Part shown: positions 5,548 to 51,575 of the stretch, piece by piece
How the letters are laid out: every line of letters begins with the position of its first letter
Numbering within the stretch: position 1 is the stretch's first letter
Source of the DNA: Ohessyouella blattaphilus
GTDB lineage: Bacteria; Bacillota; Clostridia; Lachnospirales; Lachnospiraceae
Assembly (NCBI RefSeq): GCF_024721265.1
Contig: NZ_JAMXOC010000010.1
Location: 1 to 64,000, forward strand
DNA length: 64,000 bases
Direction of reading: 5' to 3'
Notes under the pieces: generated by a model
Told to the model about the DNA's origin: nothing
What the model saw: only the letters and a program-made list of their open reading frames with translations
Database searches by the model: none
Position numbers and translations under genes: made by a program

Positions 5548-6858
5548 ATGGAAAATAAAAAATGGCGTGTAGTCTGTTATATTAATCAGTTCTTTGGTCA
5601 AATCGGTGGCGAAGAGATGGCTCATGTGGGCTTTAGTGTGAAACCAGAAGCCGTAGGACCGGGATTGTTATTTCAAAAGTTATTGCAAGATGAATGTGAA
5701 GTTGTAGGAACGATTATTTGCGGTGACAATTACTTCGCTGAAAATACTGAAGGGGCAGTTGCTGAAGGGGTGGCTTTAGCGGCTGAATTAAAACCGGATT
5801 TATTGATTGCCGGTCCGGCCTTTAATGCAGGAAGATACGGAATCAGCTGTGGCAATATGGCCGCCGCGGTGGGAAAGGAATTAAACATTCCTACAGTTAC
5901 GGGAATGTATCCGGAAAATCCGGCGGTGGACCTATTTCGTAAGGATACTTACATTGTCGAAACAGGGATACTATCATCCCAGCTTCGTAAAGTGGCACCA
6001 GTGATGGCCGATATTGGTCTACGTCTGTTGCGCCAGGAACCTATTGGCAGTGCTGCCAAGGAAGGCTATATTAAGCGAGACATTATTTTAAATGAAGAAC
6101 AACCGGAAAACGCAGCTCATCGGGCGATCGAGATGGTTCTTAATAAGATTAAAGGCGAGCCGTTTGTTAGCGAGCTTTTGCCGCCTCACTTTGATGAGGT
6201 AGAGCCAGCGCCGGCGGTGAAAGATTTAAGCAAGATAAAGTTAGCGTTAGTTACTGACGGGGGATTAATCCCGGAAGCCAATCCAGATCATCTAAAACCC
6301 AATGGCAGTACAACTTGGGGACATTATGACTGGGATGAACTTTTAGCGGATAAGCACTTTGTCATTCACAGTGGCTACGACGGTACTTGGGTACTAGAAA
6401 ATCCCAATCGCCTATTTCCTGTAGATGTGCTACGAGAGTATGAGGCCGCTGGTGAAATTGGCGTGCTCGAGCCCGAGGTGTATGTGGCTTGTGGTAACTG
6501 TGCGTCGGTGTCCGGTTCGAAAGCCAAGGGTGAGCAGATTGCCCAGGCACTACTGGAAAAAGAAATTGATGCCGTTATTTTAACCTCTACTTGAGGCACC
6601 AGTACTCGTTGCGGCGCAACGATAGCGAAAGAAATTGAACGCGTTGGTATTCCGGTGACTCAGATATGTGCCGTGGTGGATATCGCTAAGTCGGTTGGTA
6701 CCTCGAGAATTTTACGCGGCTTTGCCATTACTTGTCCGGTGGGCAATCCAAGTTTGAGTGAACAGGACGAAAAAACATCTCGTAAGCGGTATGTGGCGAA
6801 AGCGTTAGAAATGCTCACTATGCCAGGTGAAAGAGGTAAGGTAGTCGATATTTTATAA
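5548..6858 (+). CDS. Selenoprotein, glycine/sarcosine/betaine reductase component B (GrdB/GrdF/GrdH-like), UGA read as selenocysteine
   Basis: An open frame of 348 codons meets TGA at 6592-6594 and continues in the same frame for 87 more codons to TAA at 6858. The joined product has 436 residues, the usual length of GrdB/F/H. The context S-T-U-G-T-S-T-R-C-G-A-T around position 349 is the conserved selenocysteine motif of this family, so the TGA is recoding and not a mutation. Sec349 attacks the substrate Schiff base on the pyruvoyl subunit and passes the acyl group to selenoprotein GrdA. A stem-loop starting 12 bases after the TGA fits a bacterial SECIS element. AAGGAAGGGTGG precedes the start. 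The cell must also encode selA, selB, selC and selD, none of which lies in this window. Automated annotation would split this into two ORFs. Confidence 0.93.
6592..6622 (+). promoter_or_regulatory. Selenocysteine UGA codon and putative bacterial SECIS hairpin
   Basis: After the UGA (6592-6594) the bases 6606-6612 (TCGTTGC) pair perfectly with 6616-6622 (GCAACGA) around a three-base loop GGC at 6613-6615. The loop begins 18 bases after the UGA and opens with two guanines. Bacterial SECIS elements are described as stem-loops within the coding region, with the apical loop about 16-37 bases after the UGA and a G among the first two loop bases, so position and loop both fit. SelB binding is inferred. 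Confidence 0.75.
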
Positions 6859-46151: not shown

Positions 46152-47453
46152 TTAATATTCATTAAGGATGTCTTTGGTCTTCCGCGCAAGATATAGAGGC
46201 AGATTGGTAATAGCCCCATCTTTTCGATACCCTCTTTTTGAGAAACGTAAAGCGTTCCCAGGATGGTGTTCCCCAATGTATCTTTTAAATGAAGGTGCGG
46301 ATTTGTTTTCTCCACCTTTCACTTCGATGGGAATTATTTCTGTGCCATATTGGAGGATGAAATCAATCTCGCTGTTTTTATCGGAAAAATAACGTGGTGC
46401 AACTTCAAATTGTCCATGAAGCTGTTGAAGAAGATAGTTTTCTGTTAGCGGTCCTTTGAATTGATAATCGCTTTTTAAGAGAATAGCGCCATTATCAATA
46501 CCGGCCATATGTTTGAGAAGGCCAGTATCAAAGAGAAATAGTTTGAACTGATCAAGTTTGTCAAAAGCGGCAAGAGGATGCTCTGTTTTAGAGACATTAT
46601 AAACACGATACAACATTCCGGCGGAAACTAGCCATTCAATCGCTTCCTCAAAATCACGTGCTCTTCCGCCGGTGCGCACAGACCCATACATAAACTTCTC
46701 GTTGGGCTTAGCAAGCTGGGCAACGATACTACGGAAAACCATTAGGATTCGTCCACTGTTGACGTTTCCGTTGTGTTTGGAAAAATCGTTTTCGTAGACC
46801 TCGATTAGTTCCTTTTGTATTTGAGATATCATGACAGGATCTTTATGAGTAATCCATGAATTAACACATTCTGGCATTCCACCAATAATGAGGTAGTTAT
46901 TATAAGCTTCTAATAATCGTTGGTGAAAAATATCCTCAATTTGTTGATTCTTTTGAATACTATCATAGTAAGAATAAAGAGACGGATTAGTAGCAGCGAG
47001 AAATTCATCAAAAGTAAGAGGGGAAATATCGAGGAGATTAACCATACCAACAGGATAAGACTTTGGTTTTGCAAGCAGGGTTCCTAGCAGGCTTCCGGCG
47101 GCAATTATATGATAGTCGTTTGCCTTTTCTTTAAAATATTTCAGAGCGTTGAGGGCCTCAGAACACTCTTGTATTTCATCGAAGATAATGAGTGTCTCGT
47201 TAGGAGTGATTTTTTCGCCGATTATCAAAGACAGCAACTCGATAATCCGCTGAGGATTTTTGTTAACTTCGAAAATGGATTTTAGTTCATCATCTTCATC
47301 GAAGTTGAAATAGACATAGTTGGCGTAATGATTTTCCCCAAACTCTTTCATTAGCCAAGTTTTTCCCACTTGTCGTGCACCTTTTAAGACTAAGGGTTTA
47401 CGCTCAGAATTAGCTTTCCAGTTTATCAAATTTTGCATTGCATTTCGTTTCAT
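46152..47453 (-). CDS. AAA ATPase with DUF4143 domain (AAA_14 family)
   Basis: The 433-residue protein has an N-terminal P-loop ATPase: Walker A GARQVGKTW (about residues 24-32), Walker B IIFDEIQEC (near 90) and a sensor segment AAGSLLG. The C-terminal DUF4143 domain (about 230-400) resembles restriction-endonuclease-like folds, with EIDFILQY and PIEVKGGENKS carrying the D/E-x-K type residues. The role is unknown; the group is very common in anaerobes and varies between strains. The start has GGGGATG-type ribosome site, and three operator-like repeats precede it. It is not obviously linked to its neighbours and could be laterally acquired. Confidence 0.9.
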   Translation of the reverse strand: MKRNAMQNLINWKANSERKPLVLKGARQVGKTWLMKEFGENHYANYVYFNFDEDDELKSIFEVNKNPQRIIELLSLIIGEKITPNETLIIFDEIQECSEALNALKYFKEKANDYHIIAAGSLLGTLLAKPKSYPVGMVNLLDISPLTFDEFLAATNPSLYSYYDSIQKNQQIEDIFHQRLLEAYNNYLIIGGMPECVNSWITHKDPVMISQIQKELIEVYENDFSKHNGNVNSGRILMVFRSIVAQLAKPNEKFMYGSVRTGGRARDFEEAIEWLVSAGMLYRVYNVSKTEHPLAAFDKLDQFKLFLFDTGLLKHMAGIDNGAILLKSDYQFKGPLTENYLLQQLHGQFEVAPRYFSDKNSEIDFILQYGTEIIPIEVKGGENKSAPSFKRYIGEHHPGNALRFSKRGYRKDGAITNLPLYLARKTKDILNEY

Positions 47454-47608: not shown

Positions 47609-48832
47609 TTATTTCTTGCTGTCGAGCTCTTGCTTTTTAAGTGCACGAACTTTAAGTGAAAGTCCGAAAAGATTGATAAAGCCTTCCGCGTCGTGGTGGT
47701 CATATAGCTCACCAGTTGTGAAGCTAGCTAGGGATTCGCTATAGAGAGAGTAGTCAGAGGTGGTGCCAGCTTTGATGATATTTCCTTTATACACCTTTAG
47801 TTTAACCTCTCCGGTTACGTATTTCTGGGTCACATCTACAAAAGCCTGAATCGCTTCACGTAGTGGCGTGAACCATTTTCCTTCATAGACAACTTGGGCG
47901 AATTTATTACCCAAGTCTTTCTTTACCGCATAGGTATCACGGTCAAGTACCAGTTCTTCTAGTTGATCATGAGCTTCCATTAAGATGGTACCGCCAGGAG
48001 TCTCATAGACGCCCCGTGATTTCATACCAACTACGCGATTTTCTACGATATCGATAATGCCCACCCCGTGTTTTCCGCCGATAGCATTCAAATCAGTGAT
48101 GATTTCCGATACCTTTTTCTTAACGCCGTTTATGGCTGTAGGAACACCGGCCTCAAAGCTTAAGGTGATGTATTCGCCTTCGTCTGGGGCTTTTTCAGGT
48201 GAGACGCCGAGCACAAGTAGGTCATCGTAGTTTGGCTCTACAGCAGGGTCTTCTAATTCCAAGCCTTCATGGCTGATGTGCCATAAGTTACGGTCACGGC
48301 TATAGCTGTGACTAGCATCAAAAGGAAGGTCGATGCCGTGTTCCTTGCAGTAGGCAATCTCGTCTTCTCTAGATTCCATTGTCCAAACGTCGGTCATTCG
48401 CCAAGGAGCGATGATTTTAAGATCAGGTGCCAGGGCTTTGATTCCCAGTTCAAAGCGAATCTGGTCATTTCCCTTACCGGTAGCACCGTGACAGATAGCG
48501 GTAGCGCCTTCTTTTCTAGCGACTTCGACAAGCTTAGCAGCAATCGTCGGTCTAGCCATCGCCGTTCCTAATAGGTATTTGTTTTCGTAGACAGAACCGG
48601 CTTTCACGCAAGGCATTACGTAGTTATCACAGAAATCGTCAATTACGTTTTCAATATATAATTTAGAAGCTCCGGAAAGCTTTGCTCTTTCTTCTAGACC
48701 GTCTAATTCTTCGCCTTGTCCGCAGTCGATGCAACAGCAGATTACTTCATAATCAAAATTTTCTTTAAGCCAAGGAATGATGGCAGTAGTGTCAAGTCCC
48801 CCTGAATAGGCAAGTACAACTTTTTCTTTCAT
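47609..48832 (-). CDS. argG: Argininosuccinate synthase
   Basis: The 407-residue enzyme joins citrulline and aspartate with ATP in arginine synthesis. The ATP-binding loop is AYSGGLDTTAI (residues 8-18) and the family segments GATGKGNDQIRFE, SYSRDRNLWHIS and ETPGGTIL follow. Length is standard. I start at ATG 48832, eight bases after GAGGAGG, since the longer ORF to 48952 adds 40 residues that do not belong. It is the only arg gene on the - strand; argC, argJ, argB and argD lie 3-8 kb away, and argF and argH are outside the window. Confidence 0.97.
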   Translation of the reverse strand: MKEKVVLAYSGGLDTTAIIPWLKENFDYEVICCCIDCGQGEELDGLEERAKLSGASKLYIENVIDDFCDNYVMPCVKAGSVYENKYLLGTAMARPTIAAKLVEVARKEGATAICHGATGKGNDQIRFELGIKALAPDLKIIAPWRMTDVWTMESREDEIAYCKEHGIDLPFDASHSYSRDRNLWHISHEGLELEDPAVEPNYDDLLVLGVSPEKAPDEGEYITLSFEAGVPTAINGVKKKVSEIITDLNAIGGKHGVGIIDIVENRVVGMKSRGVYETPGGTILMEAHDQLEELVLDRDTYAVKKDLGNKFAQVVYEGKWFTPLREAIQAFVDVTQKYVTGEVKLKVYKGNIIKAGTTSDYSLYSESLASFTTGELYDHHDAEGFINLFGLSLKVRALKKQELDSKK

Positions 48833-48867
48833 TTTAAAATCCTCCTCTGAATTTAGAACTGTAAATA

Positions 48868-48896
48868 AATATACAACATATTTAATAAATATGCAA
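48868..48896 (-). promoter_or_regulatory. Putative argG promoter with ArgR-box-like sequence
   Basis: On the - strand TTGCAT (48896-48891) and TATATT (48873-48868) are 17 bases apart, 36 bases before the argG start. The same -35 (TTGCATA) and spacing occur before argC, and the AT-rich spacer has the look of ARG boxes. ArgR control is inferred. Confidence 0.6.
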
Positions 48897-48935
48897 TAGT
48901 ATTTTCTTAAATCGTCCTTAAGTTTAACACTGTAC

Positions 48936-48963
48936 TTGACAAAAGTACACACTTATGTATAAT
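48936..48963 (+). promoter_or_regulatory. Consensus promoter of the small transcription unit
   Basis: TTGACA (48936-48941) and TATAAT (48958-48963) are perfect boxes 16 bases apart. The -10 region ATGTATAATTA (48955-48965) is identical over 11 bases to the argC promoter (51601-51611), which hints at shared arginine control. Confidence 0.8.
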
Positions 48964-49004
48964 TAAGAAAAACTAATGGACCACATGTAAAGAGGAGCAG
49001 ACGG

Positions 49005-49163
49005 ATGAAAAAGTACATTTCTGCGATAAATGAATTAAAAGAAGAAACCTCTGCACTCACTGCAAGCAGTGTTATTTTTGTGCCGTGTATCCCCAGTCCC
49101 GCTGGGGTTATTTTGCGTAGAAAAATTTCACATGGTAAGAAGCAGGATAAGGTATACATGTAG
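49005..49163 (+). CDS. Unrecognised 52-codon ORF between argG and proB (possible leader peptide or small RNA)
   Basis: The frame ATG 49005 to TAG 49161-49163 has AGAGGAG seven bases upstream and lies between a consensus promoter and a perfect terminator, so translation is plausible. The 52-residue peptide (MKKYISAINELKEETSALT at the start) matches nothing I know. It holds three prolines within six residues (P-C-I-P-S-P) and a later L-R-R-K. Two short hairpins lie inside it: CACTG/CAGTG (49058-49071) and CCCCAG/CTGGGG (49091-49107), each followed by TTATTTT. It could encode a leader peptide, a small protein, or be a dual-function RNA. Standard gene callers with a length limit would miss it. 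Confidence 0.5.
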   Translation: MKKYISAINELKEETSALTASSVIFVPCIPSPAGVILRRKISHGKKQDKVYM

Positions 49164-49196
49164 AGCTGTTTAAATTTGTTATTAGGAAAATTTTAG

Positions 49197-49232
49197 GACA
49201 GGGCTAAAGTGTGAACTTTAGCCCTGTCTTTC
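49197..49232 (+). terminator. Terminator ending the small unit upstream of proB
   Basis: GACAGGGCTAAAG (49197-49209) pairs perfectly over 13 bases with CTTTAGCCCTGTC (49216-49228) around a six-base loop, followed by TTTCTT. It either ends an independent ~260-base RNA or acts as an attenuator ahead of proB. Confidence 0.92.
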
Positions 49233-49363
49233 TTATGTAACAAGAAAGTTCTTTGAACTTTCCTGTTACATAAAAAGCGCTCCGCGAGGATGCGCACTTC
49301 GGCGTAATGTATTTTGTGCGTATGCACACGCCGAAGGCGCCAGAATTTGCCAAGCGCAAATTC
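49233..49363. repeat. Cluster of three palindromic hairpins upstream of proB, possible dispersed repeat element
   Basis: Hairpin 1: 49233-49251 pairs with 49255-49273 (10 bp, one mismatch, 8 bp, loop TTT). Hairpin 2: GCGCaCTTCGGCGT (49292-49305) pairs with ACGCCGAAGGCGC (49328-49340) and encloses a small GTGC/GCAC stem (49316-49327). Hairpin 3: GAATTTGC (49343-49350) pairs with GCAAATTC (49356-49363). The element is non-coding in appearance, richer in GC than its surroundings, and has the feel of an intergenic repeat found in several copies per genome, which cannot be tested here. A weak proB promoter (TATACT at 49394-49399) follows. Confidence 0.65.
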
Positions 49364-49423
49364 TATTTTATGTTCACAAACTACAAATGCGATTATACTT
49401 TAGGTTTAAAGGAGAAGAGAGCT

Positions 49424-50353
49424 ATGGATGTACGGGAGACATTAAAGGATAAACAAAAGATTGTAATTAAGGTAGGGACATCAACCATTACCCATGAAGC
49501 GACAGGGAATATCGATTTAGATAAGTTAGAGAAGTTCGTGCGCATTCTGACCAACTTGATTAACAAGGGGAAGGAAGTTATCGTCGTTTCCTCAGGTGCC
49601 ATCGGGATCGGGCGCAATGTCCTAGGAATGAAAGAGCGCCCTAAGGATAAGGCGACAGCTCAGGCCTGTGCGGCTGTCGGTCAAGGGAAGCTGATTATGA
49701 TTTATGAGAAGCTGTTTGCTGAATATGGGTATTTGACGGCTCAGGTACTTCTAACGAAGGAGTCTATCGCCAACAAGACGTGTGCCCAGCATGCAAAGGA
49801 GACCTTTGATCAACTTTCAGCGATGAAGGTAATTCCTATTGTAAATGAGAATGACGCTATTTCGGTAGATGAGGAGAAGTACGGCAATTTTGGTGATAAC
49901 GATACCATGGCAGCTTACGTAGCAGCGCTTGTGGAAGCCGACCTACTAATCTTAATGAGTGATATCAATGGACTTTACACCGACGATCCGAAAGAGAATC
50001 CAAATGCTCGCTTTGTCCATACAGTTAGCAATATCGATAGCAATCTGGTGAAAATGGGACGCGGTGCGAAAAGTTCTGTAGGGACTGGGGGCATGGCGAC
50101 AAAGATTAAGGCCGCGAAGATTGCGACGAAAGCCAATGCGGATATGGTAATCGCAAATGGCAAGAGTATCTATACCATTAATGACGTGATGGCAGGAAAG
50201 AAGATCGGCACCTTGTTCCTGGCGGCAAATAGCGAATATAAGGGTGAGAATGAGGTGGCACCGATCAAAGATATCTACAAGAAGCATATGGATAAGGTGA
50301 ATAAGCGCAGACACGGAGGTGGCGAGGATGAGTTACATGCAAGTAATTGGTAA
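49424..50353 (+). CDS. proB: Glutamate 5-kinase (short form without PUA domain)
   Basis: The 309-residue kinase performs the first step of proline synthesis. The amino-acid kinase fold is evident from IVIKVGTSTIT (near residue 13), VVSSGAIGIGRNVL (near 48), NENDAISVDE and FGDNDTMAAYVA (near 145-165), and VGTGGMATKIKAAKIA (near 215). It is about 60 residues shorter than the E. coli enzyme and ends soon after the kinase domain, so it lacks the C-terminal PUA domain. ATG 49424 with AAAGGAGAAGAG is chosen; earlier codons fall in the hairpin cluster. It overlaps proA by 26 bp. Confidence 0.96.
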   Translation: MDVRETLKDKQKIVIKVGTSTITHEATGNIDLDKLEKFVRILTNLINKGKEVIVVSSGAIGIGRNVLGMKERPKDKATAQACAAVGQGKLIMIYEKLFAEYGYLTAQVLLTKESIANKTCAQHAKETFDQLSAMKVIPIVNENDAISVDEEKYGNFGDNDTMAAYVAALVEADLLILMSDINGLYTDDPKENPNARFVHTVSNIDSNLVKMGRGAKSSVGTGGMATKIKAAKIATKANADMVIANGKSIYTINDVMAGKKIGTLFLAANSEYKGENEVAPIKDIYKKHMDKVNKRRHGGGEDELHASNW

Positions 50354-51575
50354 ACGGGCGAAAGAGGCGAAGAAGAGCATTGCGTACTTAAGTCAGGAGG
50401 AAAAGACAGCGGCACTTTTGGCGGTAGCGGATGCCTTAGAAGAGAAAGAAGCCGAGATTATGACCGGTAATCGCCTAGACGTGGAAGCGGCAAAGGCAGC
50501 CGGGATGAAGAGCTCTCTCATTGATCGAATGTACTTAGATGAGGCGCGAATCGCCGCCATGGCCGAGGGCCTGCGGGAAATCAGTCTGTTAGAAGATCCA
50601 GTGGGGGCGTTTGATGAAGTGAAGGTTCGTCCCAATGGTCTGCGGATTGGAAAGAAGAGAGTTCCCCTAGGCGTGGTGGGAATTATCTACGAATCCAGAC
50701 CCAATGTCACAGCAGATGCTTTTGGTCTTTGCTTTAAGACGAATAATGTAGCGGTCTTAAGAGGGAGCTCAGATGCGATCAATTCCAATAAGGCAATTAC
50801 AAGCGCCATTAAATTAGGGCTTAATCGTTGTAAAATCTCTCAGGACGGAATTATCTTGGTAGAGGATACCAGCTACGAAGTGGCTGATGAGATGATGAAG
50901 CTAAATGAATACCTAGACGTGCTAATTCCTAGGGGCGGGGCGGGTCTTATTAACCGGGTAGTGGAAAATAGTACAGTTCCTACCATCGAGACGGGAACGG
51001 GGAATTGCCACGTCTTTGTAGACCGCTTTGCTGATCAGGAGATGGCGGTAAATATTATTGAAAATGCCAAGACCCAGCGATTAGGCGTCTGTAATGCTTG
51101 TGAGTCTTTGGTTATCGACCGGGAAATCGCCAGCCAAGTGCTTCCAAAGATTGTCGCCAGACTAGCGGGGCACGGAATTGAAATTCGCGGTGATGAAGAG
51201 GCGAGAAAAATCAGTCCAGAACTTGTAAAGGCGACGGCTGATGACTGGGGAAGTGAATACCTAGACGGGATTATCTCGGTAAAGATTGTCGGTGACGTCC
51301 ATGAAGGGATTGCTCATATTAATGAATATAATACGGGGCATTCGGAGACGATCGTGACGAATCACCTAGAGCACGCGGACCTTTTCCAGGAACGAGTGGA
51401 TGCAGCCGCGGTCTATGTAAATGCCTCAACTAGGTTTACCGATGGGTGTGAATTCGGCTACGGTGCCGAAATCGGTATCAGTACCCAGAAGCTACACGCC
51501 CGCGGGCCGATGGGCTTAGCAGCGCTAACCACCACCAAGTTTGTTATCTTTGGTAATGGTCAGATAAGAAAATAA
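50328..51575 (+). CDS. proA: Gamma-glutamyl phosphate reductase
   Basis: The 415-residue NADPH-dependent reductase makes glutamate semialdehyde for proline. Typical segments are VPLGVVGIIYESRPNVTADAF (near residue 105), RGSSDAINSNKAI, the LIPRGGAGLI loop, the catalytic cysteine in RLGVCNACESLVID (near 255), and ARGPMGLAALTTTKF at the end. ATG 50328 is eight bases after GGAGG at 50315-50319 and is preferred to the GTG at 50319. The overlap with proB means coupled translation. ProC (the last proline enzyme) is not in the window. Confidence 0.96.
   Translation: MSYMQVIGKRAKEAKKSIAYLSQEEKTAALLAVADALEEKEAEIMTGNRLDVEAAKAAGMKSSLIDRMYLDEARIAAMAEGLREISLLEDPVGAFDEVKVRPNGLRIGKKRVPLGVVGIIYESRPNVTADAFGLCFKTNNVAVLRGSSDAINSNKAITSAIKLGLNRCKISQDGIILVEDTSYEVADEMMKLNEYLDVLIPRGGAGLINRVVENSTVPTIETGTGNCHVFVDRFADQEMAVNIIENAKTQRLGVCNACESLVIDREIASQVLPKIVARLAGHGIEIRGDEEARKISPELVKATADDWGSEYLDGIISVKIVGDVHEGIAHINEYNTGHSETIVTNHLEHADLFQERVDAAAVYVNASTRFTDGCEFGYGAEIGISTQKLHARGPMGLAALTTTKFVIFGNGQIRK

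Follow-up and report, generated by a model that had tools for sequence, protein, structure and literature searches.

The gap between argG and proBA in the window (the whole stretch of 64,000 nucleotides of Ohessyouella blattaphilus DNA analysed here) holds a promoter, a Shine-Dalgarno site, an open reading frame (ORF) of 52 codons and a strong terminator. The elements of the locus are as follows:

47609-48832, minus strand: argG (NCBIfam match above the cut-off)
48936-48963, plus strand: promoter TTGACA-N16-TATAAT, 12/12 match
48993-48997, plus strand: Shine-Dalgarno site AGGAG
49005-49163, plus strand: leader peptide ORF MKKYISAINELKEETSALTASSVIFVPCIPSPAGVILRRKISHGKKQDKVYM, starting with ATG, 52 codons
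49065-49136, plus strand: long hairpin 1:2a, which spans the Pro codons
49083-49100, plus strand: Pro codons CCG (49083), CCC (49092) and CCC (49098), with a Cys codon (49086)
49144-49163, plus strand: segment 2b (AGGATA...), the predicted partner of the terminator 5' arm
49161-49163, plus strand: leader stop codon, inside 2b
49195-49236, plus strand: putative intrinsic terminator of the leader, with a main stem of 16 pairs at 49195-49230
49424-50353, plus strand: proB, glutamate 5-kinase (TIGR01027, 299.4 bits, cut-off 186)
50319-51575, plus strand: proA, glutamate-5-semialdehyde dehydrogenase (NF001221, 572.4 bits, cut-off 289)

The consensus promoter, the ribosome site with its ORF and the strong terminator had been described in an initial annotation of this DNA and were all recovered. 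With 2 sites found against 2.2 in shuffled sequence, the count of the promoter scan was not above chance; the same spacing and the same -35 box recur in all 15 loci in which the leader was found (TTGACA-N16-TA[AT]AAT). Terminator-like sites between 48800 and 49450 numbered 6, compared to 0.3 in shuffles, and the leader RNA (48970-49240) folded with a z-score of -3.33, with 2 of 200 shuffles being equally stable. The two internal hairpins followed by TTATTTT that had been noted earlier are present (49058-49071 and 49091-49107), but they are parts of one larger hairpin: since their tails are absent from the conserved features of the relatives and both lie mostly within 49065-49136, they are not additional terminators.

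Relatives carrying the leader were collected by several searches (codes such as G085 or L054 are our labels for genomes and loci). A protein search of 199 genomes of the family gave matches at E ≤ 1 in 75, and among 19 loci fetched besides that of the window, four lay before proB and shared the core of the peptide. With a profile of this core, 18 of 397 genomes gave a match at E ≤ 0.01, ten of these being the leader and eight noise, while a pattern scan blind to context returned 12 stretches, namely 11 leaders and one chance match in Thiorhodospira. An RNA covariance model found the same ten of the 397 genomes plus two weak matches, L073 and L074; these two and a further weak match, L110, were rejected as leaders, as their loci hold no proB motif. 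The model also matched all four genomes in the genus of G085 and both in the genus of G148; half of these six genomes, three, were already known. In an order-level draw it matched four of 392 genomes, two of them with the proBA leader. The resulting 15 loci comprise the window, 11 records and three further genomes; their RNA alignment contains 14 distinct rows out of 15. Faecalicatena, Extibacter and Muricomes belong to the Lachnospiraceae; the family of the remaining records was taken from their names or from sampling within the family. A further 44 proB places turned up in 60 relatives, and the 29 best of them were retrieved. Ahead of proB, the leader model gave no match in any of these 29; a crude scan within 480 nt found a terminator in one, L076, where it lies 451 nt ahead of the motif employed.

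In 14 of the 15 loci, proB is the next gene after the leader, and in the remaining one (VE202-21) the contig ends first. One of these 14 proB genes is visible for only 20 residues (F. orotica) and one has a broken frame (Faecalicatena contorta ET55); the latter, in L061 from about 4449, contains three in-frame stops (one TGA and two TAA) and may be a pseudogene or an assembly error. The gene upstream of the leader is argG in the window, G085, G384, L054, L056 and L061, and a different one in L055, L057 and G323. The initial annotation had offered two readings, a free-standing small RNA or peptide and a leader-peptide attenuator of proBA. An independent unit that merely happens to lie between argG and proBA would agree with the presence of its own promoter and terminator, but we give this reading hardly any credence, as proB stays in place while the upstream neighbours vary. 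The putative attenuator of proBA fared better, with frame, Pro codons, hairpin, terminator and promoter all conserved ahead of the same gene.

Conservation in relatives, named earlier as a check, was found both for the peptide, whose ATG, frame and core are kept in 15 of 15 Lachnospiraceae loci, and for the long hairpin over the Pro codons together with the terminator. Each ATG is preceded by a GGAG-type site. The core reads F-[VM]-P-C-x-P-x-P-x-G-V, and its Phe, Cys, Gly and Val as well as Pro at all three sites are invariant in the 15 loci (window included), whereas the positions marked x differ between loci (I, V, C, N, R; S, C, Y, N). The Pro codons show synonymous changes at sites 1 and 2 and are CCC throughout at site 3; across 37 long ORFs of the window no Pro codon is used less often than CCC, yet at 19% it is not rare. 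For the 7 loci of group A, pN/pS was 0.34 before the core and 0.37 inside it; for the 4 loci of group B, which offer few differences, the values were 0.44 and 0.55, respectively. Judged from these substitutions, the leader ORF is under purifying selection, i.e. for translation. The peptide has no conserved Arg codon, so that sensing of arginine, which had also been considered, is unsupported. Searches with the window peptide in NCBIfam, with three of the peptides in Pfam and with one relative's peptide in plasmids gave no match.

The fixation of residues other than Pro brings in a second way of reading the peptide, in which F-x-P-C-x-P-x-P-x-G acts via the exit tunnel, stalling the ribosome on a ligand such as proline and not by way of tRNA-Pro charging. 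Besides the invariant Phe, Cys, Gly and Val, such a nascent-peptide sensor would account for G721, a genome in which TFRPCQPYPLGG precedes proB despite different preceding residues and a different RNA arm 1. However, the conservation ahead of the first Pro can be explained by RNA arm 1, and the leaders of G232, G718 and G165 lack the motif despite having Pro and Cys; in our judgement this sensor is rather improbable. Put more broadly, the core may act as an arrest peptide of the proline pathway, its own sequence halting the ribosome in which it senses proline or prolyl-tRNA, with control of proBA through transcription attenuation as the outcome; to this version we assign a small chance. As Pro-Pro occurs in none of the 15 leader peptides, arrest of the polyproline type is not expected.

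With regards to the RNA, hairpin 1:2a is weak in the window, where it has a z-score of -2.2 and 9 of 200 shuffles fold as low; in each of the 14 other loci it is strong, with z-scores of -3.5 to -7.9 and no equally low value among 200 shuffles. Its own arms paired better than permuted ones: none of 2000 permutations did as well and the group rank was 2 of 24, a comparison inflated by relatedness. The hairpin beats shuffled partners at the 5% level in 13 of 15 loci, failing in the window and L059. The aligned cells were paired at 88.6%, compared to 35-50% when the structure was slid and 88.2% in column shuffles (109 of 500 as high), a structure that was itself derived from folds of the same sequences. 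The pairs are mostly invariant and covariation is accordingly slight, with both sides changing in 2 of 22 pairs versus 0.3 in shuffles. A ligand-binding riboswitch with an incidental ORF could explain such a very stable hairpin with near-invariant stems, but is very unlikely given the purifying selection on the ORF and the synonymous changes in the first two Pro codons. Furthermore, no Rfam family matched the window leader or the 15 relatives' loci at its gathering score, and no T-box did so anywhere in the window or in those loci; below this score, 11 weak matches were obtained at the leader region, none of them a T-box, and the best (HrrF, 32.2 bits versus 77) was taken as chance.

A putative terminator, identified by fold and T run, lies downstream of the leader ORF in all 15 loci, and none of 2000 permutations of its arms paired as well as the true partners (group rank 1 of 24, again inflated by relatedness). 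In L052 and L060, the first terminator was used and a second one downstream was set aside. By eye, another terminator-like hairpin, of the form GAGAG..CGG..ATCCGGCTCTC or similar and followed by a T run, lies downstream of the first terminator in L051, L052, L057, L059, L060 and L062.

The analysis shows the elements themselves, how they are conserved and that they keep a constant location ahead of proB; that the leader is transcribed, that ribosomes stall on it, which way it switches and how the antiterminator pairs are inferred. As the most economical reading, we consider it probable that the leader is a ribosome-mediated transcription attenuator of proBA that allows read-through when charged tRNA-Pro is scarce. 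Transcription would start near 48970, the leader ORF would be translated, and the position of the ribosome would decide whether the terminator at 49195-49236 forms. With ample charged tRNA-Pro, the ribosome would reach the stop codon (49161-49163) and cover 2b, upon which the terminator would form and transcription would end before proB. With charged tRNA-Pro in short supply, the ribosome would stall at the Pro codons (49083-49100), leaving 2b to pair with the 5' arm of the terminator, and the polymerase would continue into proBA.

The predicted antiterminator of this scheme, 2b:3, consists of segment 2b paired with the terminator 5' arm and was scored as formed at two or more expected pairs, a cut-off of our own choice. 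The AGGATA of 2b is conserved in all 15 loci, and the pairing appears in folds of truncated RNA. In longer folds modelled without a ribosome, 2b:3 forms in 11 of 15 loci; with the ribosome placed at the first, second or third Pro codon, it forms in 6, 10 and 11 loci, respectively, and with the ribosome at the stop codon in 3. In the window, 6.6 and 6.7 expected pairs at the second and third Pro codon stand against 0.0 at the stop, while in four loci (L052, L055, L060 and L062) the value stays below one expected pair in every state modelled. The folds by ribosome state thus fit a scheme in which completed translation means stop and a stall means read-through, and they fit best in the window, whose stop codon lies inside 2b. 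In 13 of 15 loci, 24-29 nt separate the stop codon from the AGGATA downstream of it, a distance at which a ribosome terminating there would not cover 2b, although the pairing drops there all the same; the window and L057 are the two loci in which the stop codon lies in or adjoins 2b. The duplex has a z-score of -2.4 in the window and beats shuffles at the 5% level in six of 15 loci (window, L054, L056, L058, G104 and G085), but covariation was not found among the 15 loci (1435 of 2000 permutations as good; group rank 7 of 24, a rank inflated by relatedness).

Two rival helices were considered and not adopted. Helix 1:2b, proposed by RNAalifold on alignment A4, has one of 20 pairs changed on both sides, was matched by 409 of 2000 permutations and beats shuffles at 5% in one of 15 loci. 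Helix 2a:2b, with 30 of 2000 permutations as good and group rank 6 of 24, beats shuffles in two of 15 loci, which are near-copies of each other, but may still form. As 1:2a and 2b:3 do not overlap, 1:2a cannot be the protector helix of the trp scheme. Moreover, the formation of 2b:3 in the ribosome-free model predicts read-through in the absence of translation, in which the proBA leader would differ from the trp attenuator.

Among the genomes of the family, 17 have a ProB of at least 390 bits, and nine of them carry the leader described above (class 1). Of the other eight, G232 and G165 hold different Pro-Cys ORFs (STFPHRPCPSRA and RPYPPCPFRGAFG) and six show no leader. The genus of G232 provided five more proB loci, namely G718, which resembles G232, the abovementioned G721, and three without a visible leader. 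All four divergent leaders (G232, G165, G718 and G721) combine a Pro-Cys ORF with a TTGACA promoter and a terminator before proB. They may be analogues, as none of them is detected by the RNA model and the hairpin is not significant in two of the divergent leaders, L126 and L132 (11 and 64 of 200 shuffles as low, respectively). G210 has a promoter and a terminator-like hairpin before proB, yet no Pro ORF. In a first tree of 12 leader and 29 other ProBs the leader rows formed their own clade, which was not kept once high-scoring leaderless ProBs were added. In the wider tree of 57 ProBs, the 12 class-1 and four divergent leader rows all fall into one clade of 25 rows (100/100), in which nine rows have no visible leader; the class-1 leader requires at least four gains or losses on this tree. 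F. orotica (20 residues visible), F. contorta ET55 (broken frame) and VE202-21 (contig end) were left out of both trees. With nine of 25 ProBs of the clade lacking a visible leader, the leader is dispensable, and these leaderless members slightly lower our confidence in the attenuator.

Among known systems, trp and his are controlled by leader-peptide attenuators, in which an upstream ORF with codons of the relevant amino acid is combined with alternative stems. A T-box RNA is bound by tRNA and involves no translated leader ORF. Bacillus proBA and proI are preceded by a Pro-responsive T-box riboswitch whose signal is uncharged tRNA-Pro (PMC13198045); target genes and proposed signal would be the same as here, but we propose a translated leader ORF for proBA of the Lachnospiraceae. 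In Salmonella, the mgtP and mgtA leader ORFs have conserved Pro codons through which proline limitation raises downstream transcription (PMC3641672). The proBA leader would work like mgtP: both are short ORFs whose conserved Pro codons lie over alternative stems, which in the proBA leader are predicted; it differs in that mgtP has three consecutive Pro codons while those here are spaced, and in that it sits before proB, unlike the leaders that control mgtCBR and mgtA. Similarly, uORFC-8-2 before cysS joins an upstream ORF carrying codons of the relevant amino acid to alternative stems (PMC8632094), an arrangement that we also propose for the proBA leader, although genes and peptides differ. 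A literature search of titles and abstract openings, covering little of the subscription literature, found no leader-peptide attenuator of proBA. The attenuation mechanism would be of a known kind, exemplified by mgtP and trp, with proBA apparently new as its target. If true, the Lachnospiraceae would have a translated-leader solution to a task that a T-box performs for proBA in Bacillus. Since the peptide has fixed residues other than Pro, the leader also offers a small system in which to ask whether a few spaced Pro codons suffice for sensing of tRNA-Pro charge or whether the peptide itself matters.

Several minor observations concern the surroundings of the leader. Between its terminator and proB lies a dispersed repeat of about 145 bases (49229-49373), opening with an inverted repeat and having 30 full or partial matches in its own genome, a count that includes itself and matches of the inverted arms. 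On the argG side, two sites 20 bases apart (48862-48897) resemble what we take to be the ARG-box consensus; the pattern used to search for them was derived from the site itself and is therefore circular. A 433-residue ORF on the minus strand (46152-47453) adjoins argG; it gave no NCBIfam match at E 0.01 and by eye presumably carries ATPase-like motifs. Elsewhere in the window, argC was identified as well (NCBIfam, above the cut-off), and a match to the Rfam family SECIS_4 at 6595-6632 (48.4 bits, cut-off 38) marks a possible selenocysteine insertion element.
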